Source: Gelidibacter gilvus (lineage in GTDB: Bacteria; Bacteroidota; Bacteroidia; Flavobacteriales; Flavobacteriaceae). Taken from it: 64,000 nt of DNA. Location of the stretch: NCBI RefSeq assembly GCF_004115975.1, contig NZ_SDDZ01000001.1:868001-932000 (forward strand), read 5' to 3'. A program made the position numbers and the translations under genes. The notes under the pieces were generated by a model, which was not told the origin of the DNA, did not search any database, and saw only the letters and a program-made list of their open reading frames with translations. This document shows positions 27,687 to 56,657 of the stretch, piece by piece (position 1 is the first letter of the stretch; every line of letters starts with the position of its first letter).

Positions 27687-28703
27687 ATGAATATGAAGTT
27701 TAAAAAGTTTTGTTTACTAGCCTTTGGATTATTATTAGCGCAGTTTAGTAAAGCACAAGAAGGATTGCCCATATATTCAGATTATTTAACAGATAATTAC
27801 TATTTGATTCACCCATCCATGGCGGGCGTTGCCAATTGTGCCAAAATAAGATTAACAGCACGTAAACAATGGTTTGGCCAGACTAATTCCCCTGCATTGC
27901 AAACCATGAGTATCAACAGCCGTATTGGAGAATCACCATCTGCTGTTGGAGCCATTGTCTATAATGATAAGAATGGCTACCACTCCCAAACGGGCGCTTA
28001 TCTTACCTATGCACACCATTTGATGTTTTCTCGGAATGAGATTGATCTTAATATGCTATCCTTCGGGTTGAGCGCAGGTGCCATTCAGTATAAATTGGAT
28101 GAAACCACATTTTTAAATGAAGGTTTTGATCCTTTGATTTCAGGAATCGAACAAAGTGCCACCAATTTTAATATCGATTTTGGATTCTCATATCACTTTA
28201 TAAATTTTTATGCTCATGCTACGGTTAAAAACGTATTGAATAACGATGGGATTAATTCCAACGCCAATGGCATCTTTAGATATGATAATTTAAGAACCTT
28301 GTTGTTCAGTGCCGGAAATGTTTTTACTAAATTCGGCAGTGAGTGGAGTTATGAGCCCTCCATAATGTTTTTATATAGAGATGGTACAAAGGAGTCTTCT
28401 ATTGATGTTAACGCAAAGGTTTATAAAGATATGGACTTCGGGAAATTATGGGGTGGCATATCTTATCGCCGAAGTTTGGATGGTGCTGAATTTGCAAATG
28501 GAACTGGTGTAAGTAGCCAGAATTTGCAATATTTTACACCTTTTTTAGGTATGGACTATAAGAACTTTGTATTTGCTTATACGTACTCTTATCAAGCAAA
28601 TTCTGTTGTTTTTAATAATGGTGGTTTTCATCAATTGACCTTGGGCTATAATTTTAATTGTAGAAAGAAGAAGTATGATTGTGCATGTCCAGCGATTAAT
28701 TAA
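27687..28703 (+). CDS. PorP/SprF family type IX secretion membrane protein
   Basis: A 338-residue exported protein. Signal peptide ends SKAQ (about residue 23). EGLPIYSDYLTDNYYLIHPSMAGVANCAKIRLTARKQW is the typical N-terminal pattern of PorP/SprF proteins, and the rest is a beta-barrel with a Cys-containing end (CRKKKYDCACP). SprF-like proteins help secretion and surface attachment of particular T9SS adhesins; the partner adhesin gene is often adjacent but is not present here. It has a long structured leader and is followed by 7-bp repeats that begin at its stop codon. Which T9SS function this copy serves is unknown. Confidence 0.9.
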   Translation: MNMKFKKFCLLAFGLLLAQFSKAQEGLPIYSDYLTDNYYLIHPSMAGVANCAKIRLTARKQWFGQTNSPALQTMSINSRIGESPSAVGAIVYNDKNGYHSQTGAYLTYAHHLMFSRNEIDLNMLSFGLSAGAIQYKLDETTFLNEGFDPLISGIEQSATNFNIDFGFSYHFINFYAHATVKNVLNNDGINSNANGIFRYDNLRTLLFSAGNVFTKFGSEWSYEPSIMFLYRDGTKESSIDVNAKVYKDMDFGKLWGGISYRRSLDGAEFANGTGVSSQNLQYFTPFLGMDYKNFVFAYTYSYQANSVVFNNGGFHQLTLGYNFNCRKKKYDCACPAIN

Positions 28704-28851
28704 GTCATCAGTCATCAGTCTTCAGTCTTCAGTCATCAGTCGGCAGTCGGCGATCTTTAGTCCTGATTAACTTCTTTGGGAAACCTTGTTTTGTATTTCT
28801 GAAACTTTTTTGGAATAGATGTTTTTCGCCAATCGTCAATCGTCAATCATT
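28703..28851 (+). repeat. 7-bp-period tract (AGTCATC and AATCGTC words)
   Basis: Seven units of AGTCATC/AGTCTTC/AGTCGGC occupy 28703-28751, starting on the last base of the porP-like stop codon, with two weaker units to 28765. A second short tract of AATCGTC units lies at 28831-28851. Confidence 0.85.
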
Positions 28852-28891
28852 ATTCCTAATCCCACCAAGCATCATCAGTTTGTAAGTCCAT

Positions 28892-30052
28892 TTAATCCCA
28901 AGAATAATTTTTCTGTTTTGCCTGTGTTTTGATGGCTTTTATCATGGCGTTTTCCAATCCGTTGTCATCTCCTTTTTGATGTTGGAGGATGTAAACCCTG
29001 CGTTTTTCATTTAAGTTTTGAACATCTCCTTGTATCTTTTTTCGTTCGTCACTTTTTTCTGCCACATAATCTTTAATTTGGGCTGTTGATTTACCTTTAA
29101 GTTCCGCCGGCAAATCGCTGTCTTTTAAATCTTCATACTTAAAGGATTTGTTTTTTTCCGCATCCACCAAATCCCAAGTGTCATTTTTATATAAATGCGA
29201 ACTTTTGCTTACCGTTCTGCTTACTGCATTGGCACTACTGTAGGTTTCGGCATTGGCATCCTGTTCTGATTGTAAGGTCATTCTTTGAGGACCTACACTG
29301 CCATAGGCCACATAGGTTTGATTTAACTTATGATTCAACTGCAATATTTTATCATCGTAAGGAGACGCTACATAAGTTGTATTATGGTTGTGATTGATGG
29401 CCATATAATCGCCATGCGCCAAATCTGCGCCATCTTTCCAGTAGCTGGAAATTCCTTGGTTATAATTGCCACAAAATATAGTGTTTACCGTCACATCTTT
29501 ACCAACGGCCAATTTGGCCGCGTCTTTATAGCTGACTTGACCTTGTGTGAAAGGTTCGTTTCCTGCAATAAAAATGAATTTGAGGTCATCTTGGTTGTTT
29601 CCCCAGTTTAATTGTTTTAAGGAGGTTTGAATGACTTGTCCGCAGTATTCATTGCCACCGTTGGTGCTTAATGAAAACAATTGTTTGGAAATCTCATCCA
29701 AATCACTGCTAAATGGCAATACCTGACGGATAAAACCTTCATCGCCATTAAGGTTGTCGTTGCCATATTCATAAAGTGCTATTTGTAGATTTGGTTTGGT
29801 ATCATCACATTTGGCATACGAGAGTTCATTGACAATTTCCCAAAGTTGGGCTTTGGCCTGATCAATCAAACCATCCATACTGTTGCTTGTGTCTAACAGT
29901 AATGCTACTTTAATAAATTGTTTGTTTGGAATATTTGTTGGTGTTTCTGCGAGTGCCAAATCAGAAGCAATTGGTTTTTGGGCGTTTCCATTGCAGGATA
30001 GAAATCCGAAGAGAAACAGGCTCAAGACTGTTGTTTTTAGAATCGTTTTCAT
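28892..30052 (-). CDS. von Willebrand factor A domain lipoprotein
   Basis: A 386-residue protein. From the ATG at 30052 the N-terminus is a lipoprotein signal peptide (KTTVLSLFLFGFLSC, lipobox FLSC), which is why I prefer it to the upstream ATG at 30079. The vWA domain starts at FIKVALLLDTSNSMDGL with the MIDAS motif DTSNS. The C-terminal ~120 residues are charged with KSFKYEDLKDSDLP and a predicted coiled coil. vWA domains bind proteins or metal; the specific role is unknown. It stands alone between convergent and divergent neighbours. Confidence 0.85.
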   Translation of the reverse strand: MKTILKTTVLSLFLFGFLSCNGNAQKPIASDLALAETPTNIPNKQFIKVALLLDTSNSMDGLIDQAKAQLWEIVNELSYAKCDDTKPNLQIALYEYGNDNLNGDEGFIRQVLPFSSDLDEISKQLFSLSTNGGNEYCGQVIQTSLKQLNWGNNQDDLKFIFIAGNEPFTQGQVSYKDAAKLAVGKDVTVNTIFCGNYNQGISSYWKDGADLAHGDYMAINHNHNTTYVASPYDDKILQLNHKLNQTYVAYGSVGPQRMTLQSEQDANAETYSSANAVSRTVSKSSHLYKNDTWDLVDAEKNKSFKYEDLKDSDLPAELKGKSTAQIKDYVAEKSDERKKIQGDVQNLNEKRRVYILQHQKGDDNGLENAMIKAIKTQAKQKNYSWD

Positions 30053-30258
30053 GGTGTTTTTGCTTTTATTTGATGCCATAAATCTATTAGCAACTTTTTT
30101 GGATAAAAAGTTAGAATGAGGGAGATAGAGCTATCAATTAGTGAATGGTCATCCCTAATTAGCGAACTGTTGTTTATTGGACGTGAAGGACTGGCAATTG
30201 TAAACAGGCGTTTCAATTAGTCAAATAAAACGCCTATTTTTATTCCGTTAAAAAATAT

Positions 30259-32424
30259 ATGCAAAAGATTCTTAAATATTTCTTGATCCTTATTCTGTGT
30301 TTTATAACGCAGCACATCCAGGCACAGGAAAATGAAAACAAACGAGAGAGTACTAGTTTTATAGTAAGAGGTTCGGTCAGGGAAAGTGATTCGTATAAGC
30401 CTATTTCAAAAGTCAATATTGAAGTCAATGGCGGTGCATACACGGTGACTAGTAATGATGGTGAATTTCGAATTCAAGTTAAAAAAGGTGATGAACTGGC
30501 CATTAGGCATAAAGATTTTGAAACCGTTTATTATACCATAACAAGTAACGAACGTATTTCTGTTGAAGTAAAACCAGCACTTCGGAAACCAACATCAGAT
30601 TTAAAATATCAGCGAAGTGTCCAGAACTTTAATTCATTTATCGACTCAGCCGTTACCTATCAAAAGAAAGATGCCGAAAAAAGCATTCAATTTATTACAG
30701 AAGCTTTGTTGCAAAGTACGTCTTCTAAAGAAAATGCCGATGCTTATGAGGTTTTAGGGGATGTATATGTGCATTGGAAACAGTACGATTTGGCAGTGTC
30801 CAATTATCGCATCAGCCTTCAAAACTCGGATTCCAATGAAGTCAATCTGAAACTGGCAGAAGCCTACAGAAACAATAAGAGCTATCAAGAAAGTATTGAC
30901 CTCTACAAAAACCTGAATATTTCCAGTTTATCCAATTGGCAATTGACAATTCTTTATGAAGGCCTTGCTGATACTTATGTGACCATAAAAGAGTATGACA
31001 AAGCAATTGAAAGTTATAAAAAGGGACTAGTTGTTGCGCAAAAACATCTGATCAAGCCAAAAATCACGGATCTTAACTCAAAAATCGCGCAGACCTATAA
31101 TATTTCCGGGAAGACAAATCAAGCGCAAGACTATTTTAAAAATGCACTCAGTTTAGCTTCTAAAGAAAACAAAACACGATCCGTTAAAGAAAAAGTGACG
31201 GTTGCCGATTTTCAAAATACCAATAGACTGTACACTGATGAGATTGAATTGCGGAAGGAAGCGCTAAAGGATATTGAGGAAATTGAGAAGGAATCCGTTA
31301 TTGATAATGAAAGTCCGCTGACCTCCCAAAAACAGAATTATAAGATTGGAAGCGCCTATTTTGCTAAAAAAGATTATGATAATGCCATTCCTTATTTGGA
31401 AAAGAGTATCAAGGAAGCCAATAAAAAGGAAGATTTAATCGTACAAAAGGATGCCACTCGTAAACTGTCTGATGTGTATTATGATGCCGGAGATTATAAG
31501 ATGGCTTTGGCTACCTATAAAGCATACACAGAAGTTGTAGATGAGCTTTACATCAAAAAAGAACAGGAACTATCTCAAGCCGCTCGATTTCATCGAAATA
31601 TTACAGAAAAGCAAAATCGCATCACCACTTTAGAAAGCGATAATAAACTTTCCGAAAGCCTTTTTCAGCTGACGACAGAGCGCAATAAACGACAGGAATT
31701 GATTATATATTCACTTGTGGGTGGTGTTTTGCTCTTGTTGATCACCGCATATTTCATGTATAAATACATCAAACAACAACGTTTCGCCAATAATCTACTG
31801 GCGCTGAAATCTTTAAGAAGTCAAATGAATCCGCATTTTATTTTTAATGCGCTGAATTCGGTCAATAGCTTTATTGCTTCCAATGATGAACGCACCGCCA
31901 ATAAATACCTATCTGATTTTTCGCAATTGATGCGTGCCGTTTTGGAGAATAGCGATGAGGATTTTATCCCATTGCGTAAAGAAATTGAACTTTTAGAACT
32001 TTACACAAAATTGGAGCATTTTCGTTTTAAGGATAAGTTTGATTATGCCATTACAATAGATGACTCCATTAATATTGACGAGTACCAGATTCCGCCAATG
32101 CTCTTGCAACCTTATGTTGAAAATGCTGTATGGCATGGATTGCGCTACAAATTAGAAAAGGGTCATTTGGATATTAGCATCCATAAAAAGAACAACACTG
32201 AAATTACGATTACCATTGCTGATGACGGGATTGGAAGACAGCAATCAAAAGTATTAAAAACAGAAAACCAGAAGAAACAAAACTCAAAAGGCATGGGCAA
32301 TATCAAAAAACGTGTTGCCATTCTGAATGAAATGAATAAAGACAAAGTCGATGTATTTGTAGATAATTTTCAAGATGCTGAAGATGTAGGGACGAAAGTA
32401 GTGGTAACCTTAAAGAAGGATTAA
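30259..32424 (+). CDS. LytS/YehU-type sensor histidine kinase with carboxypeptidase-regulatory-like and TPR domains
   Basis: A 721-residue membrane kinase. Signal peptide 1-22; a carboxypeptidase-regulatory-like beta-sandwich at about 32-105 (FIVRGSVRESDSYKPISKVNI); tetratricopeptide repeats at about 120-420; a coiled coil; one membrane helix at about 475-497; then the His-kinase (LytS) domain with phosphoacceptor His526 in MNPHFIFN and an ATPase domain with N-box ENAVWHGLR and G-box DDGIGR. The sensory half is therefore periplasmic. It pairs with the LytTR regulator 129 bases downstream. The intergenic gap is filled by two 7-bp-period tracts. Confidence 0.92.
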   Translation: MQKILKYFLILILCFITQHIQAQENENKRESTSFIVRGSVRESDSYKPISKVNIEVNGGAYTVTSNDGEFRIQVKKGDELAIRHKDFETVYYTITSNERISVEVKPALRKPTSDLKYQRSVQNFNSFIDSAVTYQKKDAEKSIQFITEALLQSTSSKENADAYEVLGDVYVHWKQYDLAVSNYRISLQNSDSNEVNLKLAEAYRNNKSYQESIDLYKNLNISSLSNWQLTILYEGLADTYVTIKEYDKAIESYKKGLVVAQKHLIKPKITDLNSKIAQTYNISGKTNQAQDYFKNALSLASKENKTRSVKEKVTVADFQNTNRLYTDEIELRKEALKDIEEIEKESVIDNESPLTSQKQNYKIGSAYFAKKDYDNAIPYLEKSIKEANKKEDLIVQKDATRKLSDVYYDAGDYKMALATYKAYTEVVDELYIKKEQELSQAARFHRNITEKQNRITTLESDNKLSESLFQLTTERNKRQELIIYSLVGGVLLLLITAYFMYKYIKQQRFANNLLALKSLRSQMNPHFIFNALNSVNSFIASNDERTANKYLSDFSQLMRAVLENSDEDFIPLRKEIELLELYTKLEHFRFKDKFDYAITIDDSINIDEYQIPPMLLQPYVENAVWHGLRYKLEKGHLDISIHKKNNTEITITIADDGIGRQQSKVLKTENQKKQNSKGMGNIKKRVAILNEMNKDKVDVFVDNFQDAEDVGTKVVVTLKKD

Positions 32425-32428
32425 ATAG

Positions 32429-32553
32429 GCTTGAAGCTCGAGGCAGGAAGCTCGAAGTCTATTGTGAATATGAATTAAATAATATAGTATAGAAACGCAA
32501 TGTGAGAAATGTTTTCCTTCTAACTTCGTGCTTCCAACTTCCAACTCATTCTT
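32429..32553 (+). repeat. Two 7-bp-period tracts between kinase and regulator
   Basis: GCTTGAA, GCTCGAG, GCAGGAA, GCTCGAA run without gap at 32429-32456. TTCTAAC, TTCGTGC, TTCCAAC, TTCCAAC run at 32518-32545 and end eight bases before the regulator's ATG. The middle part shows no repeats. Confidence 0.8.
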
Positions 32554-33288
32554 ATGAAACTAAAATCAATCATTGTAGAAGACGAACAGACCAGTAGGGA
32601 AATTCTAAAAAACTATCTCAAAAAATATTGCCCTAATGTTGCCGTTCTAGGTGAGGCTGCAAATGTTGATGAGGCTTTAGTCCTCATAAGAAATCATGAT
32701 TTGGATTTGGTGTTTTTAGATGTAGAAATGCCTTATGGCAATGCCTTTGATTTGTTGGATAAGGTAGGCGACATCAATTTTGAAACTGTATTTGTAACGG
32801 CTTATAACCATTATGCGATAGAAGCCTTAAATGCTCATGCATCGTATTATTTGATGAAACCTATTTCCATAGATGAATTGATTAAGGCTGTAGATTATGT
32901 CACGGAGATCAGAACTAAAGAAGATGCCTTACAAGATCAAGTGTTGGTTACAAAAACGAAGAATGTTGATGGCAAAATCACCATTCCAACGCAAGACGGA
33001 TTTGAGGTTTTGAATACTGCGGATATTCTCTATTGTAAAGCCGATGATAATTACACTGAGATTTATTTAAATACGAACAAGAAAAAACTCGTCAGTAAAA
33101 CCTTGAAATATTTTGAAGATGCCTTAACCGAATCCGGTTTTGCAAGGGTGCATAAATCCTATTTGGTGAACGTCAACGAGATTGTGAAATATATAAAAGG
33201 GAAGGGTGGGAGCGTTGAACTGAGCAGTGGGAAACAAATTATGGTGTCCGCGTCCAGAAAATCTGAATTATTGTCTTATTTTAAATAG
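32554..33288 (+). CDS. LytTR family response regulator
   Basis: A 244-residue regulator. Receiver domain with acidic pair Glu9/Asp10, phosphoacceptor Asp56 in DLVFLDVEMP and Lys near YYLMKPISIDEL; LytTR DNA-binding domain at about 140-244 with DILYCKADDNYTEIYL and FARVHKSYLVNVNEI. LytTR regulators bind direct repeats upstream of targets. Its partner is the kinase just upstream. No candidate operator is obvious in the window. A hexamer repeat tract starts right after the TAG stop. Confidence 0.95.
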   Translation: MKLKSIIVEDEQTSREILKNYLKKYCPNVAVLGEAANVDEALVLIRNHDLDLVFLDVEMPYGNAFDLLDKVGDINFETVFVTAYNHYAIEALNAHASYYLMKPISIDELIKAVDYVTEIRTKEDALQDQVLVTKTKNVDGKITIPTQDGFEVLNTADILYCKADDNYTEIYLNTNKKKLVSKTLKYFEDALTESGFARVHKSYLVNVNEIVKYIKGKGGSVELSSGKQIMVSASRKSELLSYFK

Positions 33289-33290
33289 TG

Positions 33291-33500
33291 GAAATTGAAT
33301 TCGAAATTGAATTCGAAATTGAACTCGAACTTGAATGTGAAACCTGAAACTTTTGAACTTGAAAATAAAAGGACAACTATCAATTCTGAGTAGGTAGGAA
33401 ATCGAAGATATAGTGAAGATCAACTCTGGTTTAAATGTCTATTTTTGTTAAATCGATTTTTGAACTTGAAACCTGAAAACCCTAAACTAGAAACTAAAAG
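33291..33500 (+). repeat. 6-bp-period and 7-bp-period tracts flanking a unique middle
   Basis: Nine hexamers of form GAAnnn (GAAATT, GAATTC, GAACTC and variants) occupy 33291-33344. CTTGAAA, CCTGAAAA, CCCTAAA, CTAGAAA, CTAAAAG occupy 33465-33500 and run straight into the ATG at 33501. Confidence 0.8.
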
Positions 33501-34019
33501 ATGCCCATTATAAAATCAGTAAACGGAAAACATCCACAAATAGCAGACGATTGCTATATCGCAGAAAATGCCACCATCGTTGGCGAGGTCATCATCGGAA
33601 CACAATGTAGTGTCTGGTTCAATGCCGTCATTAGAGGAGATGTCCATTATATTAAGATCGGAAACAAGGTCAATATCCAAGACGGTGCGATTATTCATGC
33701 TACCTATCAGAAATCACCCACCAATATTGGCAACAATGTATCTATTGGACATAATGCCATTGTTCATGGGTGCACCATTCATGATAATGTCTTGATTGGA
33801 ATGGGGAGTATTGTGATGGATGATTGTGTTGTGGAAAGCAATAGTATAATTGCTGCTGGTGCTGTAGTCACTAAAAATACCCGAGTGGAATCTGGAAGTA
33901 TATATGCTGGTGTCCCTGCAAAAAAAGTTAAGGATATTAGTGCTGAATTGATTTCTGGTGAAATCCATCGGATTGCTGATAATTATGTAACGTATTCAAG
34001 TTGGTTTGAGGAAGAATAA
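33501..34019 (+). CDS. Gamma-carbonic-anhydrase family protein (left-handed beta-helix)
   Basis: A 172-residue hexapeptide-repeat protein forming a left-handed beta-helix trimer. The three metal-binding His of gamma-carbonic anhydrases are present in AIIHATY, IGHNAIVHG. Related bacterial proteins (YrdA/PaaY/CaiE) have carbonic anhydrase, thioesterase or unknown activity, so the reaction is not certain. The gene has no close upstream partner apart from the two-component system. 7-bp-period tracts lie on both sides. Confidence 0.93.
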   Translation: MPIIKSVNGKHPQIADDCYIAENATIVGEVIIGTQCSVWFNAVIRGDVHYIKIGNKVNIQDGAIIHATYQKSPTNIGNNVSIGHNAIVHGCTIHDNVLIGMGSIVMDDCVVESNSIIAAGAVVTKNTRVESGSIYAGVPAKKVKDISAELISGEIHRIADNYVTYSSWFEEE

Positions 34020-34020
34020 A

Positions 34021-34076
34021 GGAGAAAGAATATAGAGGATAGAACCAAGAAAAAAGAACCAAGACTCAAGAAAACT
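34021..34076 (+). repeat. 7-bp-period tract, eight GA-headed units
   Basis: GGAGAAA, GAATATA, GAGGATA, GAACCAA, GAAAAAA, GAACCAA, GACTCAA, GAAAACT follow one another without gap, starting one base after the stop of the preceding gene. Confidence 0.8.
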
Positions 34077-34127
34077 TTAAGCGATTTGCTAAATTACAAG
34101 ACAATGTTAGCTCCTATCACTAAGCAT

Positions 34128-34907
34128 CTAAAACTGCAAATGTTGAACTCTGTATTTTCTCTCTAAAATATCTGTTAAGACATCAACAGTTCCGTTGGTG
34201 TAAAATTGATTATCACCCTGTGTAGATAGTGTGTTCAAAAGTTGATGTTGTTCCAATACGGTTTTGGTCTGGCGCGCAACGGCTTGCCCTGAATCGATTA
34301 TTTTAACGTGTTTGGGCAACATGTCCAATAATAATGGGATGAGGTAAGGATAGTGCGTACAGCCTAAAACTAGATAGTCAATATCTGCATCGAGCATAGG
34401 CTTCAAATAGGTGAGGAGCAATGTTTTCATTTCATCGCTATCTGTTTTCCCCTCTTCGATAAGTGTCACAATCCCTTCACCAACTTGTTCAATTACTTTG
34501 ATGCCTTTACTGTAGAGATCTGTGGTTTTATGAAACAACTCGCTGCTGAGCGTCCCTTTAGTAGCCAAAATGCCAATCGCTTTTGTTTGCGTACTTAAAG
34601 CGGCTGGTTTGATGGCCGGTTCAATGCCTATAAAGGGAATGTTATAAGAATCCCTTAAAGTGGTGATGGCGTTGGTTGTAGCGGTATTACAAGCAACAAC
34701 AATGAGTTTACAGTTTTTTTGAATCAGTAACTCTGTATTCTTAATACTCAAATCAATGATTTCTTGTTTGGTCTTATTGCCATAGGGCGCATTAAAACTA
34801 TCTGCCAAATAAATGGTATGTTCATTTGGAAGCAAGGCTTTTATTTCCTTAAAAACTGAAGTTCCTCCAATACCCGAGTCAAAGATGCCAATTGGTTGTG
34901 TGCTCAT
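34128..34907 (-). CDS. murI: Glutamate racemase
   Basis: MurI makes D-glutamate for peptidoglycan. The 259-residue protein has the expected motifs: FDSGIGGTSVFKEI, first catalytic Cys in VACNTATT and second in LGCTHYP. The ATG at 34907 is only four bases downstream of a TATTTTTG element, so the transcript may be leaderless. It is separated from the upstream ompH gene by a terminator whose T-run forms that promoter element. Envelope genes in the same orientation precede it. Confidence 0.96.
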   Translation of the reverse strand: MSTQPIGIFDSGIGGTSVFKEIKALLPNEHTIYLADSFNAPYGNKTKQEIIDLSIKNTELLIQKNCKLIVVACNTATTNAITTLRDSYNIPFIGIEPAIKPAALSTQTKAIGILATKGTLSSELFHKTTDLYSKGIKVIEQVGEGIVTLIEEGKTDSDEMKTLLLTYLKPMLDADIDYLVLGCTHYPYLIPLLLDMLPKHVKIIDSGQAVARQTKTVLEQHQLLNTLSTQGDNQFYTNGTVDVLTDILERKYRVQHLQF

Positions 34908-42411: not shown

Positions 42412-42419
42412 TATTTTTG
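42412..42419 (+). promoter_or_regulatory. -7 element of pdxJ
   Basis: TATTTTTG, perfect TAnnTTTG, 18 bases before the ATG at 42438. This sets the start: an in-frame TTG at 42417 lies inside the element. Confidence 0.55.
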
Positions 42420-42437
42420 CCCATTAAAACAAAAGCT

Positions 42438-43151
42438 ATGACAAAGTTGAGCGTTAATATCAATAAGATTGCTACCCTTAGAAATTCAAGAGGTGGTGAT
42501 GTTCCAAATGTGGTTCAATTTGCGAGAGATGTTCAAAAGTTTGGTGCACAGGGTGTCACAATTCATCCACGACCAGATGAGAGACATATTCGCTATCAAG
42601 ATGTTTATGATTTAAAATCTGAAGTTTATACTGAATTTAACATTGAGGGTAACCCAATTCGTCAATTTATAGATATGGTGCTGGAAGTAAAGCCCACACA
42701 AGTTACTTTGGTGCCTGATGCGGAAGATGCCATTACGTCAAATGCGGGATGGGATACCATTAAGCATAAAGACTTCTTGGTAGACGTCATTAAAGAATTT
42801 AAACAGAACGGGATTCGTACTTCAATCTTTGTGGATCCATCATTAAAGCAAATTGAAGGTGCTAAAGCTACCGGAACTGATAGAATTGAACTTTATACCG
42901 AAGCCTATGCGGATGCCTATAGCTTGGGAAATAAAATGGGAATCAAACCTTATACAGACTGTGCGGTCTTGGCTAGCGCTTTGGGTCTGGGACTTAACGC
43001 AGGACATGACTTGTCTTTGGATAATATCAAATATTTCAAACAGAACATCCCTGATTTACTGGAAGTCTCCATTGGACATGCCTTAATCTCGGAGAGTTTG
43101 TATTTGGGCATTGAAAATGTCATCAATATGTATTTGAGGCAGTTGAAGTAG
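42438..43151 (+). CDS. pdxJ: Pyridoxine 5'-phosphate synthase
   Basis: PdxJ condenses 1-deoxyxylulose 5-phosphate with 3-amino-2-oxopropyl phosphate to pyridoxine 5'-phosphate. The 237-residue product begins TKLSVNINKIATLRNSRGG and has GVTIHPRPDERHI, CAVLASALGLGLNAGHDLS and the SIGHALISES phosphate-binding end of the TIM barrel. The ATG at 42438 is set by the promoter position. It is divergent from the CBS-nadK pair. A 7-bp-period tract starts straight after its stop. Confidence 0.96.
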   Translation: MTKLSVNINKIATLRNSRGGDVPNVVQFARDVQKFGAQGVTIHPRPDERHIRYQDVYDLKSEVYTEFNIEGNPIRQFIDMVLEVKPTQVTLVPDAEDAITSNAGWDTIKHKDFLVDVIKEFKQNGIRTSIFVDPSLKQIEGAKATGTDRIELYTEAYADAYSLGNKMGIKPYTDCAVLASALGLGLNAGHDLSLDNIKYFKQNIPDLLEVSIGHALISESLYLGIENVINMYLRQLK

Positions 43152-43293
43152 TGTTCAGTCTACAGTCTGCAGTAAGCAGTAAACAGTTTTCCCGCCTCCG
43201 TGAAATACTGCGGACGGGCAGGCAGTAGGCAGTCATCGGTCATCCGTCATCGGTCACAAATCAACAATCGTTAATCGTTAATCAAAAATCATC
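43152..43293 (+). repeat. Long 7-bp-period tract with an embedded inverted repeat, running into the next start codon
   Basis: TGTTCAG, TCTACAG, TCTGCAG, TAAGCAG, TAAACAG occupy 43152-43186, starting on the base after the stop. After an inverted repeat (43191-43222, CCCGCCTCCG / CGGACGGGCAGG), units CAGGCAG, TAGGCAG, TCATCGG, TCATCCG, TCATCGG, TCACAAA, TCAACAA, TCGTTAA, TCGTTAA, TCAAAAA occupy 43219-43288, and TCATC leads to the ATG at 43294. Confidence 0.85.
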
Positions 43294-48384: not shown

Positions 48385-49899
48385 TTATACATTCAGCTTT
48401 AGGAGCGCATCCATATAATGACGGGTATTGGAAAGTCTTGGTACTTTATGTTGGCCGCCTAATTTATCTTGTTGTTTTAGCCAATCATAAAATAATTGTT
48501 GCCGTGCAATATTTATCTTAGGACTATTGAGCGTGATGTTGTTGTATCGTTTAGCTTCATAATCGGAGTTTAAAGATTTTAAAGCATTGTCCAATAGTTC
48601 GTTAAAGTAATTGATGTCTTCTGGAGGGGTTTTGAATTCAATGAGCCATTCATGCGCGCCTTTGTCTCTGCCGCTCATAAAAATGGGAGCAGCTGTATAA
48701 TCAACAATTTGCGAATTCGTTTTCTTGCACACTTTCTTTAAGGCGTCTTCAGCATTTTCAATGATCAATTCTTCACCAAACACATTGATATGATGTTTTG
48801 TCCGCCCGCTAACTTTAATCCGATAGGGTTCCAACGACGTAAATCTAATGGTATCTCCAATCTTATAGCGCCAAAGTCCCGCATTGGTCGTAATGACCAC
48901 AGCATAGTTTTTGTGGGTTTCAACCTCCGCTAACGGAATGATCCGTTGTTCTGGAGTGCCGTAGGCATCCATAGGAATGAATTCATAAAAAATGCCGTAA
49001 TCTAACATGAGTAGCAACTCACTGGAACTGTTCTGGTCTTGGATGGCAAAAAATCCTTCAGACGCATTATAGATTTCATAATACCGAAAATCCTTTCTTG
49101 GTAAAATTGCTTTGTACTGATCTACATAAGGTAGAAAACTCACACCCCCGTGAAAATAAACTTCCAAGTTGGGCCAAATATCAAAGATGCTTTGCTTGTT
49201 TGTGGTTTCTAAAACATTGTTCAAAAGGACTAACATCCAGGACGGAACTCCAGCAAGGCTGGTCACATTTTCGTTAATGGTTTCATTAACTATCGCCTGC
49301 ATTTTATGTTCCCAATCATTCATCAAAGATACTTTACTACTGGGAGTGCTGCTAAATTCTGCCCAGAATGGCATATTATCAATTAATATCGCTGATAAAT
49401 CACCAAAAACCGTCCCGTTTTCTTTGTAAAGCTCTTTACTGCCCCCAAGCCTTAAGCTTTTTCCGGTAAATAATTGGGAGTTTTCATTATTGTTGAGGTA
49501 CATGCACAATAAGTCCTTGCTGGCTGCATAGTGGCACTCTTCAAGAGATTCATTGCTTACGGGTATAAATTTACTTTTTGCATTAGTGGTTCCGCTCGAT
49601 TTTGCGAACCATTTAATAGGCGAGGGCCAGAAAATATTGTTTTCGCCCATTCGGGATCTTTCAATATTGGCTTGATTTTCTTCGTAAGTTGAAATTGGAA
49701 CTCTTTCGGCAAACGTTTGGTAATTTGTTATGCTTCCAAAGTCGTAGATCCTGCCAATTTCAGTGTCTTTAGCTGTCGTGAGCAAGTCCTGCAGCAATTC
49801 ATTCTGTACTTCGTTAGGGTACTTTAGAAACAATTCAATTTGATGGAATCGCTTTTTCAAAAACCAGGAAGCAATTGAATTAACTAATGGGATTGGCAT
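48385..49899 (-). CDS. GH3 auxin-responsive-promoter family acyl-adenylate-forming enzyme
   Basis: A 504-residue protein of the GH3 family, whose plant members adenylate jasmonate or auxin and conjugate them to amino acids. Features: the first nucleotide motif SSGTTNAKSKFIPVS, the FYEIYNASEGFFAIQD motif, and YRIKVSGRTKHHINVFGEEL hinge. I use the ATG at 49899 (MPIPLVNSIASWFLKKR); the upstream ORF extension is not conserved-looking. Bacteroidetes GH3 proteins have no established substrate. It is divergent from the DUF2797 gene. Confidence 0.9.
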   Translation of the reverse strand: MPIPLVNSIASWFLKKRFHQIELFLKYPNEVQNELLQDLLTTAKDTEIGRIYDFGSITNYQTFAERVPISTYEENQANIERSRMGENNIFWPSPIKWFAKSSGTTNAKSKFIPVSNESLEECHYAASKDLLCMYLNNNENSQLFTGKSLRLGGSKELYKENGTVFGDLSAILIDNMPFWAEFSSTPSSKVSLMNDWEHKMQAIVNETINENVTSLAGVPSWMLVLLNNVLETTNKQSIFDIWPNLEVYFHGGVSFLPYVDQYKAILPRKDFRYYEIYNASEGFFAIQDQNSSSELLLMLDYGIFYEFIPMDAYGTPEQRIIPLAEVETHKNYAVVITTNAGLWRYKIGDTIRFTSLEPYRIKVSGRTKHHINVFGEELIIENAEDALKKVCKKTNSQIVDYTAAPIFMSGRDKGAHEWLIEFKTPPEDINYFNELLDNALKSLNSDYEAKRYNNITLNSPKINIARQQLFYDWLKQQDKLGGQHKVPRLSNTRHYMDALLKLNV

Positions 49900-49972
49900 A
49901 TTTATAGTATCTTTAAAGACTAAAAATAACACTTTTTTTAAATTAATTCTTCTAAATAAAAATATTAAATAA

Positions 49973-50767
49973 ATGACGTACCAAGGGGTCTTGACCAAAA
50001 TGGAAACTGAGTTTTCTCATCCTATTCAATACTATCTTGTTTTTGAAAATGACTTCATCAATATGAATCAGTTATTGGATAAAACAATCACGATCCAGTT
50101 TATTGGCTACCAATGTCTCAACTGCTCGCTTAACAAGCCAATTTATAGGCAAGGGTTTTGTAAAAGTTGTTTTTTTGATATCCCACAAGCTGCAGATTGG
50201 ATTATGAAGCCAGAACTGAGTACAGCGCATTTGGATATAGAAGACCGTGATTTGGATTATGAGAAAAAGGTGCAGTTGAAACCCCATATTGTGTATTTGG
50301 CAAATTCCAGTAATGTCAAAGTTGGCGTGACCAGGAAATCACAGGTGCCAACGCGCTGGATTGACCAAGGCGCGCATGAAGCGATTGAAATTGTTGAAGT
50401 ACCCAATAGATATTTGGCGGGTATTACAGAAGTTGCCCTAAAGGATTATGTGGCCGATAAAACCAATTGGCGCACCATGTTGAAGAATGAGATTGTTGAT
50501 GAAGATCTGGTGGAATGGCGCGATCGATTAAAGCAATATATTCCTGCAGAAGTTTTAGAGTATTATATTGCCAATAATAAAGAAACGAATATTGAGTTTC
50601 CTGTTTTACAATATCCTGAGAAACCGAAAAGCCTGAATTTAGATAAAACACCAAACTATCAAGGTGTTTTAAAAGGGATCAAAGGGCAATATCTCATCTT
50701 TGAAGATCAAACGGTTTTTAATATCCGAGGCAGCGAAGGGTACGTCATTGCACTGTCAATAGCTTAG
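49973..50767 (+). CDS. DUF2797 family protein
   Basis: A 264-residue protein. An N-terminal zinc-ribbon-like Cys set (YQCLNCSLNKP and FCKSCFF) is followed by HIVYLANSSNVKVGVTRKSQVPTRWIDQGA, which resembles a GIY-YIG-like core and is typical of DUF2797. No function is known. It starts 73 bases from the divergent GH3-like gene, with which it may share a regulatory region. Confidence 0.9.
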   Translation: MTYQGVLTKMETEFSHPIQYYLVFENDFINMNQLLDKTITIQFIGYQCLNCSLNKPIYRQGFCKSCFFDIPQAADWIMKPELSTAHLDIEDRDLDYEKKVQLKPHIVYLANSSNVKVGVTRKSQVPTRWIDQGAHEAIEIVEVPNRYLAGITEVALKDYVADKTNWRTMLKNEIVDEDLVEWRDRLKQYIPAEVLEYYIANNKETNIEFPVLQYPEKPKSLNLDKTPNYQGVLKGIKGQYLIFEDQTVFNIRGSEGYVIALSIA

Positions 50768-50984
50768 TGTTTCTTATTAACATTAATTTATAACTCTAAA
50801 CTTTCCGAACACTACAACATTTTGTAATTTAAGGCTATGAAGGTCAATGCATAGAGTTGTATGGAGAGACTTATTAGCCACATTATTATCTGATTATTAA
50901 ACTTTACTGCACTTCTATTTGGTAAATAAATGTTTGTACTATGTGTGATGACTTTCTGTGCATGAAACCTTAAATACAGAACTC

Positions 50985-51203
50985 ATGAAAATTCCAGTAA
51001 TGTTCTATGTGGTCATAACCACGCTGTTGTTAGTGACTTTAACCATCATGGTAGCTATGGACATGCCTCTAAATTGGGTGTTCTATCTAACGTGTTTGGG
51101 TCAGATCCTTGTAGTTGTAATGGCTTATAAAGTGCTGCGGGATAAATACGTCACTGATAAGACTTTTGAAGATTTTTACGAAGACCATCCCATTGGAAAA
51201 TAA
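50985..51203 (+). CDS. Small two-helix membrane protein
   Basis: A 72-residue protein with two membrane helices (about 4-24 and 32-50) and a charged, acidic cytoplasmic tail ending FEDFYEDHPIGK. I use the ATG at 50985 rather than the GTG at 50958. Short proteins of this shape occur widely in flavobacteria without a known role. A bidirectional terminator follows directly. Confidence 0.65.
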   Translation: MKIPVMFYVVITTLLLVTLTIMVAMDMPLNWVFYLTCLGQILVVVMAYKVLRDKYVTDKTFEDFYEDHPIGK

Positions 51204-51240
51204 AAAATCACGTCATTATAGTAAAACGTGATTTTTTATT
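51202..51240. terminator. Bidirectional terminator
   Basis: AAAAAATCACGT (51202-51213) / ACGTGATTTTTT (51226-51237) serves the convergent genes on both sides. Confidence 0.85.
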
Positions 51241-51254
51241 TCATTCTAAAAAGA

Positions 51255-51449
51255 CTACATGTTTTCTTGATCTCTTAAATTTTGAATATAAGCTGCCTTT
51301 TGCATTTGTCTTCTCTTCCTGACAGACGGTTTAGTGAAATATTGATTTTCTCTTAAAGTCTGCATAACTTTCACATTTCTGTGTTTACGCTTATAACGCT
51401 TAATGGCGCGTTCTATATTTTCACCTTCTTTAATTTCAATTCTTAACAT
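51255..51449 (-). CDS. rpsU: 30S ribosomal protein S21
   Basis: The 64-residue basic protein has the S21 pattern: ENIERAIKRYKRK, VMQTLRENQYFTKPSVRKR. S21 sits near the 3' end of 16S rRNA and affects initiation; in Bacteroidetes it is part of the group that hides the anti-Shine-Dalgarno, which agrees with the scarcity of Shine-Dalgarno sites here. It lies 33 bases after rpoD, so the two are probably one operon, as in other phyla. Confidence 0.96.
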   Translation of the reverse strand: MLRIEIKEGENIERAIKRYKRKHRNVKVMQTLRENQYFTKPSVRKRRQMQKAAYIQNLRDQENM

Positions 51450-51482
51450 AAATAGTTTTTATAGTATATGGAATATTTAGGA

Positions 51483-52346
51483 CTATCCTAAATACGTTTT
51501 TAAAATTCTACTCTTTGACGTGTGCTTTAATCGCTTAATGCCTTTTTCTCTAATTTGACGAACACGTTCTCTGGTTAAATCAAAGGTCTTGCCAATTTCA
51601 TCTAAAGTCATCGGTGGCTGATTGCTCAATCCGAAATTCAATCGGATCACATCACTTTCTCTTTGTGATAGTGTGTTGAGCGCTCTGTCAATTTCCAAAC
51701 TTAAAGATTCAGTCATTAAAAGACGATCCGGTCTTGGAGAATCACTAGAAGAAACAACATCATATAAACTTGATGTTTCTCCTTCTCTTAAAGGCGCGTC
51801 CATGGATACATGGCGTCCTGAAATTCTCATGGACTGTTTCACATCTTTAATGGTCAAATCCAATTCCTTGGCAATTTCTTCAGCACTTGGAGGGCGTTGG
51901 TGCGCTTGCTCCAAAAACGAATAGGCCTTATTGATCTTATTGATCGAACCAATTTTGTTCAAAGGTAATCTAACTATTCGAGATTGTTCTGCTAAAGCTT
52001 GAAGAATTGCTTGTCGAATCCACCAAACTGCGTAAGAAATAAATTTAAAACCTCTGGTTTCGTCAAAACGTTTAGCAGCTTTTACCAAACCAGCATTACC
52101 TTCATTGATTAAATCGGGTAAGGTCAACCCTTGATTTTGATATTGTTTAGCGACAGATACAACAAAACGAAGGTTAGCAGTGGTAAGCTTATCCAAAGCT
52201 TCCTGATCTCCTTCTCTAATACGTTGCGCCAATTCCACCTCTTCATCTGCTGTAATCAATGGCAGTTTACTAATATCCTGAAGATATTTATCAAGGGATT
52301 TGGATTCTCTGTTTGTAACCTGCTTTGTAATTTTTAATTGCCTCAT
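51483..52346 (-). CDS. rpoD: RNA polymerase primary sigma factor RpoD
   Basis: A 287-residue sigma70 of the short Bacteroidetes primary type, without region 1.1 and without a non-conserved insertion. Region 1.2 is at about 17-50, region 2 includes [20 protein letters not shown] and [10 protein letters not shown], region 3 [15 protein letters not shown], and region 4 ends with [19 protein letters not shown]. It recognises the TTG/TAnnTTTG promoters seen throughout this window. It precedes rpsU. Confidence 0.96.
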
Positions 52347-52525
52347 GTAGTCTCTTTTGTTTTAATGAACGTTAACCCTACATTATAACTATTTAAACGA
52401 CAAAAGCAAACAAACTCACAATACTTTAACATAATTCGATAATTTTTTTTAAATTGCAGGTTGTTTTGACCTCAAATCATGGAAATTCGTCAATTTTCTG
52501 AATAAATCGATAAACTTCCATTCTT

Positions 52526-55183
52526 TTAATTCACGCTATCTTTTTTCTTCTTTTGAGTGTTAAAAATATCTTTGATGGTCTTTTTTATAGCGTCACTACC
52601 AGTCTTAGTGCTATCCTTTTTTATTGGAGCGGTTTGGGTAGTGGTAGAATCCTTTGTGGTAGGTTCTGTTTCTGGGATCTGATTTGTGTTACCGCTCATA
52701 ATGCCTCCCAAAAGATCCTTTATCTTATCTGTGCCTTTCCCAATTAATTTTTGTTTTTCAATCTCAATCAATTGTTTGGTCAAGTTGGTTATCCCACTCG
52801 TTAAGTCTGTCGAAATTTTTGGATTGGTAAATGACCCAGAAATGTTGGCGATTACCGGAATAGTGATTTTGTTGACTTCATTATCATTGATCTTTCCGAT
52901 AAGACGGTTGATGTCACTTCCCAAATATTTGGCCGGCACATTAAAAACAGCATCATACGCCATGGTTTGATCAAAACCATGAGCTCCAGAAACCGTAATG
53001 CCAATATCTTGATATCTTAAATCAAAAGGTTTGATATTTACTTTACCGTCGGCAAATTCTAAATTTACCATTAAATTATTTAGATCCAGTTTGCCGAAAT
53101 CTATAAAACTTAAGGCGCCTTCCAATTTCGATAATAATGGGCTCGCATTCTCATCGATGTCCGTAGTTAGCAATTGTGAATTTGCGGTACCGGAAATGGT
53201 ATTTAAGTTTGGAGAAAATTCCTTGTCCAGAGTTCCTGATATTTTAATACTACTGTTCAGCTTTCCTTGAAGTACTTTCGCTATTGGCGCTAAGCTTTGT
53301 AATAATTCTAAATCATTGAAAGATTTTGCGATGTTAAAATTACTGGCATCCAGATTCAAATTAAAAGATGGCGTATCGGCTTTAGTACTGACATTTCCAG
53401 AAAGAGATAGAATACCGTCAAAAATACTTGAGCTCAAACTATTGATAGTGGCTTGTTGGTCTTTTATGGTCAAAACGCCTTTTACGTTTTTCAAATTTAG
53501 GTTGTCATAAATGACGGTGTTGGCATTTGCAGTAACTGTACATTCCAAGAACTTAGGAATTTTTAAACCTTCGGTTCTCGTTGCCGCTTTTTTAGAAGTC
53601 GCTGCTGTAGTGGTCTCGGTTTCTTCACTCATAAAATCGTTCAGTGCCAAAGTGTTTGAGCTCAGGTTGAAATTTCCTTTTAAGTTCACTTTCTTGCTCA
53701 GCATAAACCCGATTAAATTGTTGATGGTTCCTGTTGCCGAAAAATCACTTCGTCCCGTCTTCGCATTAAAACTATTTAAAGTTACCGTAGAGGGGTTGAA
53801 GGTCATCTCTGCTTTTGAAATATGCAGCGGTTCGTTCATGGCATCTGAAGTAAACACCAGGTCGCTGATCGTCGCATTTCCAGACGCCTTAATTCTATCG
53901 TAAGCACTGGTTTCAATGGCGTTCATATCAAAAGCCGTATTCAATTTGGCTTTTAGAATCCCGCTCAACTCATTTTCAAGTTCTATCGGGTAGGCTTTGG
54001 TAAGGTTTGCCAGGTTCAAGGTGCCATCCACATCGGCGGTGACTTGCATATTACCAGTTAGGTTTTTAATCAAAGCTGACGATCTGAACACATCACTATC
54101 AATTTTGAAGTTCAAGGTATTGATGGCTACATATGTGTCATCGGCGTTTCCAGTATCGTTTTTGATTTCTGTATCAATCACGATGTTTTCAACGCGCTTA
54201 GGCAAATCAGGATATTTAAATGATGCATTGTCAGATTTGATGCTGATATCCAATGTTGGAATGGTAGTTTCTGTTACCTTTCCTTTTATGATGCCATGGA
54301 TCTTGAAATTTCCGGTCGTTTCAACATTATCCAAGTTTTTGGAATAGGCTTCTGGGATTACCGCTAAAAAATCTTTAAACGATGATCCGGTATTTGTGAA
54401 AGATAGATCAATATTTTGACCTTCCTCTATAAGCTGAACAAATCCATTAAATTCAATTGGCAATTGATTGATCAATGCTTTGTTTTCTTTGAAGGTGTAT
54501 TTTTGAGCGTTTAGATCCATGTCTATCAACGCATCCAGCTTGATATGGTTATTGTTCAAATAATTGGTGCTATCCATGGTCAAACTCACCTTGGCTTCCG
54601 ACTTTGTGTCAAGTTCAGAGACATCACCTGAGAAGGTGCCTTTGCCTGTATGGTTCAATTCCGTCACATAAAATTGCATGTCTCCAGGGATGTCAATATA
54701 CGTAAGCGCACTGTTTTTGATGCTGTAGTCCTTGATGTCAAAAGAAAAATTAGATGCCGTTGTGTCTTGAGGGTTCTCGCTTTCTTTTACAATATCGTAA
54801 TTGACGTTTCCAAACGCATCGGTTTTTAAGGTCAATAGTGCTTCATTGACATTGATGGAGTTGACAATAATAGCTTCATCAGCAGATTTAAATAGCTCTT
54901 TTACCGACATGGTGAAATTTATGTTTTTTGCGGTCACGAAGGTTTCATCCTTAAAAGGTTCGAAATTGGTGATGACCAAATCGCTGACCTCCACATGAGC
55001 CTGTGGAAAACTTCGGAATAAACTTAAGTTCACATCACTAAACTCAACATTGGCGTTGAGGTTTTGATTGATAAAGTTTTTGACCATGCCCTTGATCTGC
55101 GATTGGAAAACAAAAGGTAACGCAATCAATAGGACAATGATTATTAATAAGGTAATACCGGTGATTTTTAGAAATTTCTTCAT
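52526..55183 (-). CDS. AsmA-like family protein
   Basis: An 885-residue protein anchored by one N-terminal helix (about 4-24, ITGITLLIIIVLLIALPFVF). The long body of repeating beta-strands matches AsmA/TamB-type proteins, now thought to form bridges that move phospholipids between inner and outer membranes. The C-terminal ~70 residues are Thr/Lys-rich and low complexity. I use the ATG at 55183, which begins the membrane helix. It stands alone and divergent from folK. Confidence 0.9.
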   Translation of the reverse strand: MKKFLKITGITLLIIIVLLIALPFVFQSQIKGMVKNFINQNLNANVEFSDVNLSLFRSFPQAHVEVSDLVITNFEPFKDETFVTAKNINFTMSVKELFKSADEAIIVNSINVNEALLTLKTDAFGNVNYDIVKESENPQDTTASNFSFDIKDYSIKNSALTYIDIPGDMQFYVTELNHTGKGTFSGDVSELDTKSEAKVSLTMDSTNYLNNNHIKLDALIDMDLNAQKYTFKENKALINQLPIEFNGFVQLIEEGQNIDLSFTNTGSSFKDFLAVIPEAYSKNLDNVETTGNFKIHGIIKGKVTETTIPTLDISIKSDNASFKYPDLPKRVENIVIDTEIKNDTGNADDTYVAINTLNFKIDSDVFRSSALIKNLTGNMQVTADVDGTLNLANLTKAYPIELENELSGILKAKLNTAFDMNAIETSAYDRIKASGNATISDLVFTSDAMNEPLHISKAEMTFNPSTVTLNSFNAKTGRSDFSATGTINNLIGFMLSKKVNLKGNFNLSSNTLALNDFMSEETETTTAATSKKAATRTEGLKIPKFLECTVTANANTVIYDNLNLKNVKGVLTIKDQQATINSLSSSIFDGILSLSGNVSTKADTPSFNLNLDASNFNIAKSFNDLELLQSLAPIAKVLQGKLNSSIKISGTLDKEFSPNLNTISGTANSQLLTTDIDENASPLLSKLEGALSFIDFGKLDLNNLMVNLEFADGKVNIKPFDLRYQDIGITVSGAHGFDQTMAYDAVFNVPAKYLGSDINRLIGKINDNEVNKITIPVIANISGSFTNPKISTDLTSGITNLTKQLIEIEKQKLIGKGTDKIKDLLGGIMSGNTNQIPETEPTTKDSTTTQTAPIKKDSTKTGSDAIKKTIKDIFNTQKKKKDSVN

Positions 55184-55472
55184 TGAAAAATTTAGTTTTT
55201 CCTCCCACAAAGTGAAAGGCAATAGTTTAGTAAGTATATATACGCAAAGTTTATTGCAAAGGTCGGGCAAATGTTAAAGTTTAATAAAACTTTAGCAAAT
55301 TTTTAAGAGGTCAATTTTTTATATTTTTTGGGCGAGATCGTTTTTCATAAATAGGGGAATACTTACATGTAAAGATACTTTAACGAGAATGACCATCAGT
55401 ACTTTTAAATTAATTTTTTTCACCTAAAATAGCACACAAAATGATTTTGTTTTCTTTATTTTGGCATCAGAT

Positions 55473-56624
55473 ATGAATCAACCGCATAAAGTTTACATCG
55501 CACTTGGCAGCAATAAAGGCGACAGATTAAAGCATCTGCAAGATGCTATTGACCTTGTTTTTAAGCGCGTCGGAAAAATCAATATTATTTCAAGAGTCTA
55601 CAATACGCCAGCTTTGGGTTTTGAAGAAGGTGCATCAGCTGAGTATTTTTATAATGCCTGTGTTTTTGTTGACACGCATTATTCTGCCGAAGAAGTGATG
55701 ATCAAACTTTTAGACATTGAAACGGAGCTCGGTCGCACACGGCAATTGAGTGGCGTTTATGAATCCAGAACGATTGATTTGGACGTGATTTTTTTTGATG
55801 ACGATATTATCAATTCGGAACTAATTACGACACCGCATCCTCAAATGCACAAACGTAAATTTGTGTTGCAGCCTTTATATGATATCGCCCCAAAAATGAT
55901 GCATCCCAAACTTGGAACATCGGTTTTGCAGCTTTTAGAAACCTGTGAAGATCAAAGTGCAATTGAACCCATTAATATATGGCTAAAGAACCCAATGAAG
56001 GTATATGGCTTTGGAGACTTTAATTATATTGCTATTGAAGGGAATATTGGTGCAGGAAAAACAAGTTTGGCATATCAGATTTCCAACGATTTTAATGGAA
56101 AGTTGATCTTGGAGCGTTTTGCTGACAATCCGTTTTTACCGAAATTTTACGAGGAACCGCAACGCTATGCCTTTACTTTGGAAATGTCATTTCTGGCCGA
56201 TCGCTATCAGCAGATTAGTGATGATTTGTCGCAGTTGGATTTGTTCAAGGATTTTATGGTGAGTGATTATGATATTTATAAATCGTTGATTTTTTCAAAG
56301 ATAACCTTGCCCGAGGATGAATTTCGACTCTACAGAAAGCTCTTTTATTTAATGTATAAAGACATCGCCAAACCTGATTTGTATGTCTATTTGTACCAGA
56401 ACACGACGCGGCTGCAAGAGAACATCAAAAAGCGTGGTCGCGATTATGAGCAGAACATTCAAAATGACTATCTCGAAAAGATCAATACAGGTTATCTTGA
56501 ATTTTTAAAAAATCAGACGGAACTCAACGTTAAGATCATTGATATTTCAGATCGTGATTTTGTGGAGAATCGAGCCGATTATTTATGGATTTTGGATGAG
56601 ATTTGTAGAAAAACAGAAGCTTGA
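55473..56624 (+). CDS. folK: Fusion of FolK (HPPK) and a deoxynucleoside kinase
   Basis: A 383-residue bifunctional protein. Residues ~5-160 are 2-amino-4-hydroxy-6-hydroxymethyldihydropteridine pyrophosphokinase (YIALGSNKGDR, SRTIDLDVIFFDDD, PHPQMHKRKFVLQPL) for folate synthesis. Residues ~185-383 are a deoxyadenosine/deoxyguanosine-type kinase (P-loop EGNIGAGKTSL, ERFADNPFLPKFYEEP, LEMSFLADRYQQI). This fusion is known in flavobacteria. I use the ATG at 55473. The stop codon lies inside a 7-bp-period tract. Confidence 0.95.
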   Translation: MNQPHKVYIALGSNKGDRLKHLQDAIDLVFKRVGKINIISRVYNTPALGFEEGASAEYFYNACVFVDTHYSAEEVMIKLLDIETELGRTRQLSGVYESRTIDLDVIFFDDDIINSELITTPHPQMHKRKFVLQPLYDIAPKMMHPKLGTSVLQLLETCEDQSAIEPINIWLKNPMKVYGFGDFNYIAIEGNIGAGKTSLAYQISNDFNGKLILERFADNPFLPKFYEEPQRYAFTLEMSFLADRYQQISDDLSQLDLFKDFMVSDYDIYKSLIFSKITLPEDEFRLYRKLFYLMYKDIAKPDLYVYLYQNTTRLQENIKKRGRDYEQNIQNDYLEKINTGYLEFLKNQTELNVKIIDISDRDFVENRADYLWILDEICRKTEA

Positions 56625-56657
56625 AGTGGGAACCTTGTAGCACGAAGTAAAGAGAAG
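56616..56657 (+). repeat. 7-bp-period tract overlapping the folK stop codon
   Basis: GAAGCTT, GAAGTGG, GAACCTT, GTAGCAC, GAAGTAA, AGAGAAG follow without gap; the TGA stop (56622-56624) is formed by the junction of units one and two. Confidence 0.75.

Follow-up and report, generated by a model that had tools for sequence, protein, structure and literature searches.

The intergenic DNA of the marine flavobacterium Gelidibacter gilvus carries dispersed tracts of degenerate tandem heptanucleotides, several of which border genes in the 64,000-nucleotide stretch analyzed here (positions 868,001 to 932,000 of contig NZ_SDDZ01000001.1; hereafter the window, whose first letter is position 1). We give a rough probability of 0.6 to the reading that these tracts evolve mainly by slipped-strand duplication and deletion in steps of 7 nt and persist mostly in the spacers behind genes. 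The Gelidibacter tracts are genus-wide heptanucleotide spacer repeats of a known kind, that of the short tandemly repeated repetitive (STRR) sequences of heterocystous cyanobacteria or of long simple sequence repeats. What is new here is that tract sites are common to species while their words turn over, and that seemingly unrelated words have a common core, NNNGANT, which is strong in Gelidibacter and suggestive further afield.

Period-7 tracts in Gelidibacter intergenic DNA

The window comes from a 4.63-Mb genome in 42 contigs, which was sampled as the window plus 60 further stretches (61 sequences, 1.264 Mb, 751 gaps and 163 kb of intergenic DNA), with genes modeled by script as the longest open reading frames, without annotation. 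With a tract threshold of a score of at least 12 and five dinucleotide shuffles as controls, this intergenic DNA yielded 51 period-7 tracts against a mean of 1.8 in the shuffles. Periods of 5, 6, 8, 9, 10, 11 and 12 gave 0, 5, 5, 1, 3, 7 and 6 tracts (0.6-2.4 in shuffles), and the 33 tracts of period 14 are a harmonic of 7. Lag-7 identity stands out in the intergenic DNA, with echoes at lags 14 and 21, and no lag-7 excess was found in the coding DNA of the same genome. The family of tracts that an original prediction had described from the letters of the window is thus borne out by lag-7 autocorrelation on the genome scale. The tracts are dispersed, occupying 40 of the 751 gaps in the sampled 1.26 Mb.

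The closest named relatives in the searched collection are Gelidibacter species (the protein encoded at 33501-34016 is, for example, 95% identical in G. pelagius), and other Gelidibacter sequences look alike, with 28 tracts in 38 kb of intergenic DNA in G. pelagius. In other genera, three Kordia loci hold six period-7 tracts (none in shuffles), eleven Polaribacter loci one, three Tenacibaculum loci none and two Winogradskyella loci two, and 52 further loci hold seven (1.0 in shuffles). Four genomes of other genera picked for sites of the word AGTCNNC gave 3, 1, 1 and 1 tracts per 200 kb each, against 2.0, 0, 0 and 0.5 in their shuffles.

Tracts in the window

Each of the eight intervals of the original prediction was scored at lag 7 against 1000 dinucleotide shuffles of its own gap, taking the best at any lag from 5 to 10. 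Five are clear: none of the 1000 shuffles was as good as 28703-28765 or 43152-43288, and 28831-28851, 32518-32545 and 34021-34076 reached p = 0.015, 0.014 and 0.005, respectively. Two are weak, namely 32429-32456 (p = 0.119 at any lag, 0.025 at lag 7 alone) and 33465-33500 (p = 0.141 and 0.024), and 56616-56657 matches its shuffles (p = 0.905 and 0.316). Real period-7 tracts therefore exist at several of the proposed gene boundaries, the last of them excepted. The accompanying description of gap-free units with a strict 7-bp period suits 28704-28751; 43152-43288 is instead two tracts flanking a 32-bp insert. The features are as follows.

28704..28751, + strand: period-7 tract, score 33; units AGTCATC/AGTCTTC/AGTCGGC; directly 3' of the stop codon of the PorP/SprF gene (27687-28703)
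28826..28863, + strand: second period-7 tract of gap 28704-28891, score 17; units CAATCGT/TAATCCC-like
32429..32456, + strand: weak period-7 tract; units GAAGCTC-like; 3' of the histidine kinase gene (30259-32424)
32518..32546, + strand: short period-7 tract; units CTTCCAA; 5' of the LytTR regulator gene (32554-33288); found by TRF at 32531-32546
33463..33499, + strand: weak period-7 tract, score 12; units TGAAACC-like; 5' of the hexapeptide transferase gene (33501-34019)
34020..34071, + strand: period-7 tract, score 15; units GAACCAA-like; directly 3' of the hexapeptide transferase gene
43156..43187, + strand: period-7 tract, score 17; units CAGTNNN; 3' of pdxJ (42417-43151)
43188..43219, no strand: GC-rich insert of 32 bp with inverted-repeat character, separating the two tracts of the pdxJ gap
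43220..43291, + strand: period-7 tract, score 29; units CAGTNNN grading via CGGTCNN to AATCNNN; ends just 5' of the next start codon (43294)

The genes that flank tract-bearing gaps in the window are ordinary (PorP/SprF, histidine kinase, LytTR response regulator, hexapeptide transferase, PdxJ and alpha/beta hydrolase). Directly 3' of the LytTR gene, at 33291-33342, the strongest repeat has a period of 12 (GAAATTGAATTC); it adjoins the weak period-7 tract, and a similar sequence is present in G. algens.

Placement relative to genes

Tracts occur in 28 of 473 tandem gaps, 8 of 114 convergent gaps, 2 of 127 divergent gaps and 2 of 37 gaps at stretch ends, divergent gaps being poorer in tracts than tandem plus convergent ones (p = 0.047). 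That all tracts follow plus-strand genes, as first described, mirrors only the gene order of the window: genome-wide they also lie in convergent gaps and 3' of minus-strand genes. The idea that they start at the stop codon survives as a tendency, with 45 of the 117 Gelidibacter tract ends that face a stop lying no farther than 10 bp from it, where random placement would put 19.5. Ends facing a start are that close to it in 26 of 83 cases (14.9 expected). In a set of 46 genes selected because a tract lies no more than 10 bp from the stop, the lag-7 match rises from 0.39 over the final 10 bases of the coding sequence to 0.67 over the 10 that follow. With tracts left out when the scores of their two strands were no more than 3 bits apart, the shared core lay on the same strand about as often as on the opposite one at stops (34 vs 32), and the ratio at starts was 23 to 12.

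Comparison between Gelidibacter species

Orthologous gaps were available for 127 gaps of our genome in G. pelagius, 65 in G. mesophilus, 52 in G. japonicus, 38 in G. algens and 10-12 in four others. In G. pelagius, the orthologous gap carries a tract for six of nine of our tract-bearing gaps and for five of the 118 others; in G. japonicus the corresponding counts are three of five and two of 47. The site at 34020..34071 has tracts of related words in G. pelagius, G. japonicus and G. maritimus. The pdxJ gap (43152) has ANTY sites mostly at multiples of 7 in our genome and in seven of eight relatives, G. mesophilus being the one without. In gap 33289-33500, blocks with GC-rich palindromes are found in G. 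pelagius, G. maritimus and G. japonicus, and none in our genome, G. algens or G. mesophilus.

The G. pelagius orthologue (L051) of gap 28704-28891 is 426 bp long and consists of about three rounds of heptamer tract, TTTGTGAAACTTCGTG-like core and heptamer tract; the exact 16-mer of this TTTGTGAAACTTCGTG-like core has only two occurrences in the host genome.

A shared core behind the words

The original prediction held that only the period is conserved between loci, not the sequence. In Gelidibacter, words of different loci do share a core. A circular width-7 profile, free of phase and strand, was fitted to 106 Gelidibacter tracts (orthologous and same-gap tracts included) and reads ANTCNNN, or NNNGANT on the other strand, with column information of 0.80, 0.16, 0.96, 0.74, 0.05, 0.26 and 0.22 bits. 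Its log-likelihood is 466, against 276 ± 4 for 20 sets in which columns were permuted within each tract, and for the tracts of our genome alone it is 253 against 163 ± 8. Removal of the AGTCNNCAGTC tracts (92 left) gives 358 against 245 ± 6, with G-A as the strongest columns, and removal of the ARTC tracts (63 left) gives 276 against 173 ± 6 with the consensus GAAGTTT, that is, GAA rather than GANT. GANT is present in the majority unit of 62 of the 106 tracts, compared with 0.23 of random intergenic 7-mers. Within tracts, the core columns are steadier than the rest, and at lags 7, 14, 21 and 35, though not at 28, the difference is larger than in any of 30 refitted nulls.

The word AGTCNNC is matched in all 8 Gelidibacter genomes, with 0-9 control hits each. 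We rejected it as a family-wide signature: 45 of 397 Flavobacteriaceae genomes match, the mirror-image control matches 47 by hand count, and because the control matches as many genomes, AGTCNNC is special only inside the genus. Many Flavobacteriaceae genomes (47 of 397 by the same count; for example, G243, G287 and G296) carry tandem repeats of the control word CTGACNN, and period-7 repeats of other words are therefore patchily spread in the family.

Evolution of the tracts

Local slipped-strand duplication and deletion in 7-nt steps would lengthen and shorten the tracts, and point mutation followed by re-amplification of the mutated units would change their words. Tracts would be retained mostly in spacers 3' of genes, because neither coding sequence nor promoters are hit there. 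We favor slippage because similarity is highest between neighboring units, sister species retain tract sites while the words in them differ, the core is on either strand about equally at stops, and tracts are scarce in divergent gaps. In tracts of at least 49 bp, the identity between units is 0.79 at lag 7 and has dropped to 0.64 by lag 42, and this decay with distance is the reason why terminal copying from one template, a mechanism raised in the original prediction, is not favored. Unit-sized indels lend slippage weak support: among indels of at least 6 bp, pooled over species pairs such that a single event may be counted twice, multiples of 7 make up 7 of 10 in period-7 context and 11 of 49 elsewhere (p = 0.006). 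Species do differ in length by whole 7-bp units in some cases, such as gap 32425-32553, which is 14 bp shorter in G. pelagius. We infer that a stranded role in regulation is absent for most tracts, and that the shared core reflects a sequence preference of the process that amplifies or retains units rather than common descent of the tracts.

Several observations weigh against slippage as the main process. Four of the seven multiple-of-7 indels come from one gap (43152), without which the counts are 3 of 5 and 11 of 49 (p = 0.10), and site sharing is not significant in G. mesophilus (1 of 5 of our tract-bearing gaps vs 3 of 60 others) or G. algens (1 of 3 vs 1 of 35). Outside the gaps with strong tracts, exact 7-bp doublets show no special excess (32 vs 21.3 ± 5.7; 10-bp doublets, 36 vs 18.0 ± 2.6). 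Plain slippage accounts for neither the number 7 nor the shared core, and the core columns are less changeable than the others inside tracts.

The core outside Gelidibacter

A BLAST search with the 43152 gap led, by a weak hit (E 0.4), to two Nostoc plasmids; a second tract compared with plasmids by BLAST had no match. The 68 kb of intergenic DNA in the two Nostoc plasmids holds 26 period-7 tracts (0.3 in shuffles), and periods 8, 9, 11 and 12 are likewise above shuffles with 5, 5, 5 and 3 tracts. Given that the plasmids were chosen via a hit of a window tract, a stricter test drops the two 40-kb stretches round the hits and keeps 20 of the 26 tracts; the rest of the same plasmids stays, and several of the 20 words are redundant. 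On the Gelidibacter profile these 20 tracts score z = 2.9 over random Nostoc 7-mers, and their summed score of 124 was reached by none of 1000 column-permuted sets, the best of which gave 113. GANT, which was defined in Gelidibacter first and then tested elsewhere, occurs in 7 of 10 published heptamer words or consensuses (2.4 expected by letter permutation, P = 0.0016), an unsystematic sample from four papers in which six of the ten are from Nostoc or Anabaena; with one word per lineage, the count is 3 of 4 (P = 0.03). Against the whole Gelidibacter profile the published words are unexceptional (permutation fractions 0.15, 0.27, 0.15 and 0.70), the shorter GANT core alone being common. Weighed with the contrary results given below, these comparisons are suggestive of a GANT core common across phyla.

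A stronger claim would be that the heptanucleotide repeats of Bacteroidota, Cyanobacteria and Xanthomonas form one NNNGANT class, made or kept by sequence-specific 7-nt stepping (by a GANT-reading polymerase, nuclease or filament-forming protein) and not by generic slippage of unrelated words; we regard this as unlikely. Equally doubtful as an account of the Gelidibacter tracts is sequence-specific machinery (a polymerase, nuclease, recombinase or DNA-coating protein) that recognizes GANT at 7-nt intervals and multiplies or maintains the units bearing it. The shared core with its steadier columns would follow from such machinery, as would the above-chance core in Nostoc tracts and published words. 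Among the 64 spaced triplets enriched at distance 7, GANT ranks 2 in our genome, 2 in other Gelidibacter, 3 in Nostoc and 7 in other Flavobacteriaceae; however, the top rank goes to ACNG in Gelidibacter and to TCNG in Nostoc, both above GANT. It also speaks against sequence-specific machinery that the profile is not matched by 22 unselected tracts from other Flavobacteriaceae (z = -0.1), that the published word TAACTGA is without the GANT core, that the Gelidibacter core becomes GAA once ARTC tracts are removed, and that there is no candidate protein. Nor did the profile fit 8 tracts lying next to AGTCNNC sites in genomes of other genera (z = -0.3), and the fit of 30 tracts of other genera was not significant (110.6 vs 98.4 ± 6.3, maximum 111.0).

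Relation to known heptamer repeats

The original prediction likened the tracts to STRR sequences, and rightly so: both are 7-bp tandem units, intergenic, dispersed and of several word classes, and tracts of the Nostoc plasmids share words with the window, such as GGTCATC and AGTCATC. They differ in phylum, and the excess over shuffles in Nostoc extends to periods 8, 9, 11 and 12. Heptamers of the STRR kind from Calothrix and Anabaena are cited or listed in PMC4692102 and PMC2408588, the latter also covering Anabaena intergenic repeats, and heptamer repeats are known from Xanthomonas and Nostoc (PMC4692102). TAACTGA repeats occur in Beggiatoaceae, Cyanobacteria and five Bacteroidetes (MacGregor 2015, PMC4679880). 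In Gramella forsetii and Aequorivita sublithincola they have other heptamer repeats alongside, and Elizabethkingia anophelis has larger heptamer assemblages (PMC4679880); these three cases contradict the earlier statement that flavobacteria have no described equivalent.

The TAACTGA repeats resemble ours in being intergenic heptamers that occur in flavobacteria with other heptamers, but they are one fixed word that lies just 5' of start codons in its main host (PMC4679880), and TAACTGA is the majority unit of none of the 106 Gelidibacter tracts. The GGGANTN / GGGGA(T/C)T heptamers of Xanthomonas and Nostoc (Rehm 2015, PMC4692102) have GANT in the unit and are mostly intergenic, closer to the end of the upstream gene, rare between divergent genes, on both strands and partly in inverted pairs. 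Unlike ours, they have quadruplex-capable G runs; GGG is in the majority unit of only 7 of the 106 Gelidibacter tracts (4 of 51 in our genome). Because most Gelidibacter units are without G runs, this argues against quadruplex formation, which is discussed for the Xanthomonas/Nostoc words, as a general cause. The repeats of the Nostoc trnL intron P6b region (TDNGATT / NNTGAGT; PMC4476775, PMC3488679) are also degenerate units with a GANT core, and there one word class is replaced by another at a fixed site, as in the L149 locus described below in comparison with G. pelagius, although these repeats lie inside a group I intron and are held in a stem.

We found no description of the Gelidibacter tracts or their shared GANT core in the open-licence literature, which does not imply absence from print, and by the terms tried heptamers are unmentioned in a 2025 survey of short tandem repeats (PMC12699852). 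Among the longer simple repeats of bacteria, units of seven have been noted to be the most abundant, for no accepted reason (Mrazek 2007, as cited in PMC4679880 and PMC4692102). In Gelidibacter many words are in play at once, which lets the common features of words be asked about, and the suggested answer is a GANT core plus three freer bases.

Dispersal between gaps and roles in RNA

A somewhat less probable alternative than sequence-specific machinery is that whole tracts were dispersed by copying between gaps, through recombination or a mobile element, in which case the shared core would be common ancestry. Consistent with such copying, the tracts at window 43266 and L142:4659 contain an identical 26-mer stretch. 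At L149:2009-2082, an inverted AGTCNNC pair (74 bp) in our genome corresponds to an inverted AGTTATG pair (76 bp) in G. pelagius, both arms thus carrying the other word, and replacement of a whole region has been inferred for the Nostoc trnL intron (Kaasalainen 2015, PMC4476775). What speaks against dispersal of whole pieces is that tracts in orthologous gaps retain their site and partly their word, and that adjacent units are the most alike.

A function of the tracts at the RNA level, whether as stem-loops that end transcripts at the 3' side or as binding sites for proteins, is improbable. The excess of Gelidibacter tracts near stops would suit such a role, as would good folds at L149:2009-2082 (z = -4.5) and window 43152-43293 (z = -3.7) and the pairing of heptamer repeats into a hairpin in the Nostoc trnL intron (PMC3488679). 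However, a stranded role is not favored, because the core is on either strand equally next to stops, and the Nostoc plasmid tracts are not clearly enriched near stops (7 of 26, 5.0 expected) or starts (3 of 26, 3.5 expected). Gaps 32425-32553 (z = -1.1) and 28704-28891 (z = +0.7) fold like shuffles, and 22 pairs of successive Gelidibacter tracts in the same gap comprise 10 direct, 4 inverted and 8 unclear. With this mixed orientation of neighboring tracts, and with two of four gaps folding no better than shuffles, the hairpin was rejected as a general design.

Other repeats in the window

Three further repeats were seen in the window. At 9960-10861 there are 4.4 tandem copies of 207 bp with 91% matches, in which the end of a gene (7932-10055) and the palindrome-like AATTCCTGCGCAGGCAGGAATCTCC are copied 3' of the gene. 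The 16-mer CCTGCGCAGGCAGGAA, three copies of which lie at 10064-10493, has 21 occurrences in our genome and none in the reversed control, often in near pairs, and is thus a dispersed palindromic repeat. The gene boundary at 19898-20172 carries 3.1 tandem copies of an 89-bp unit.

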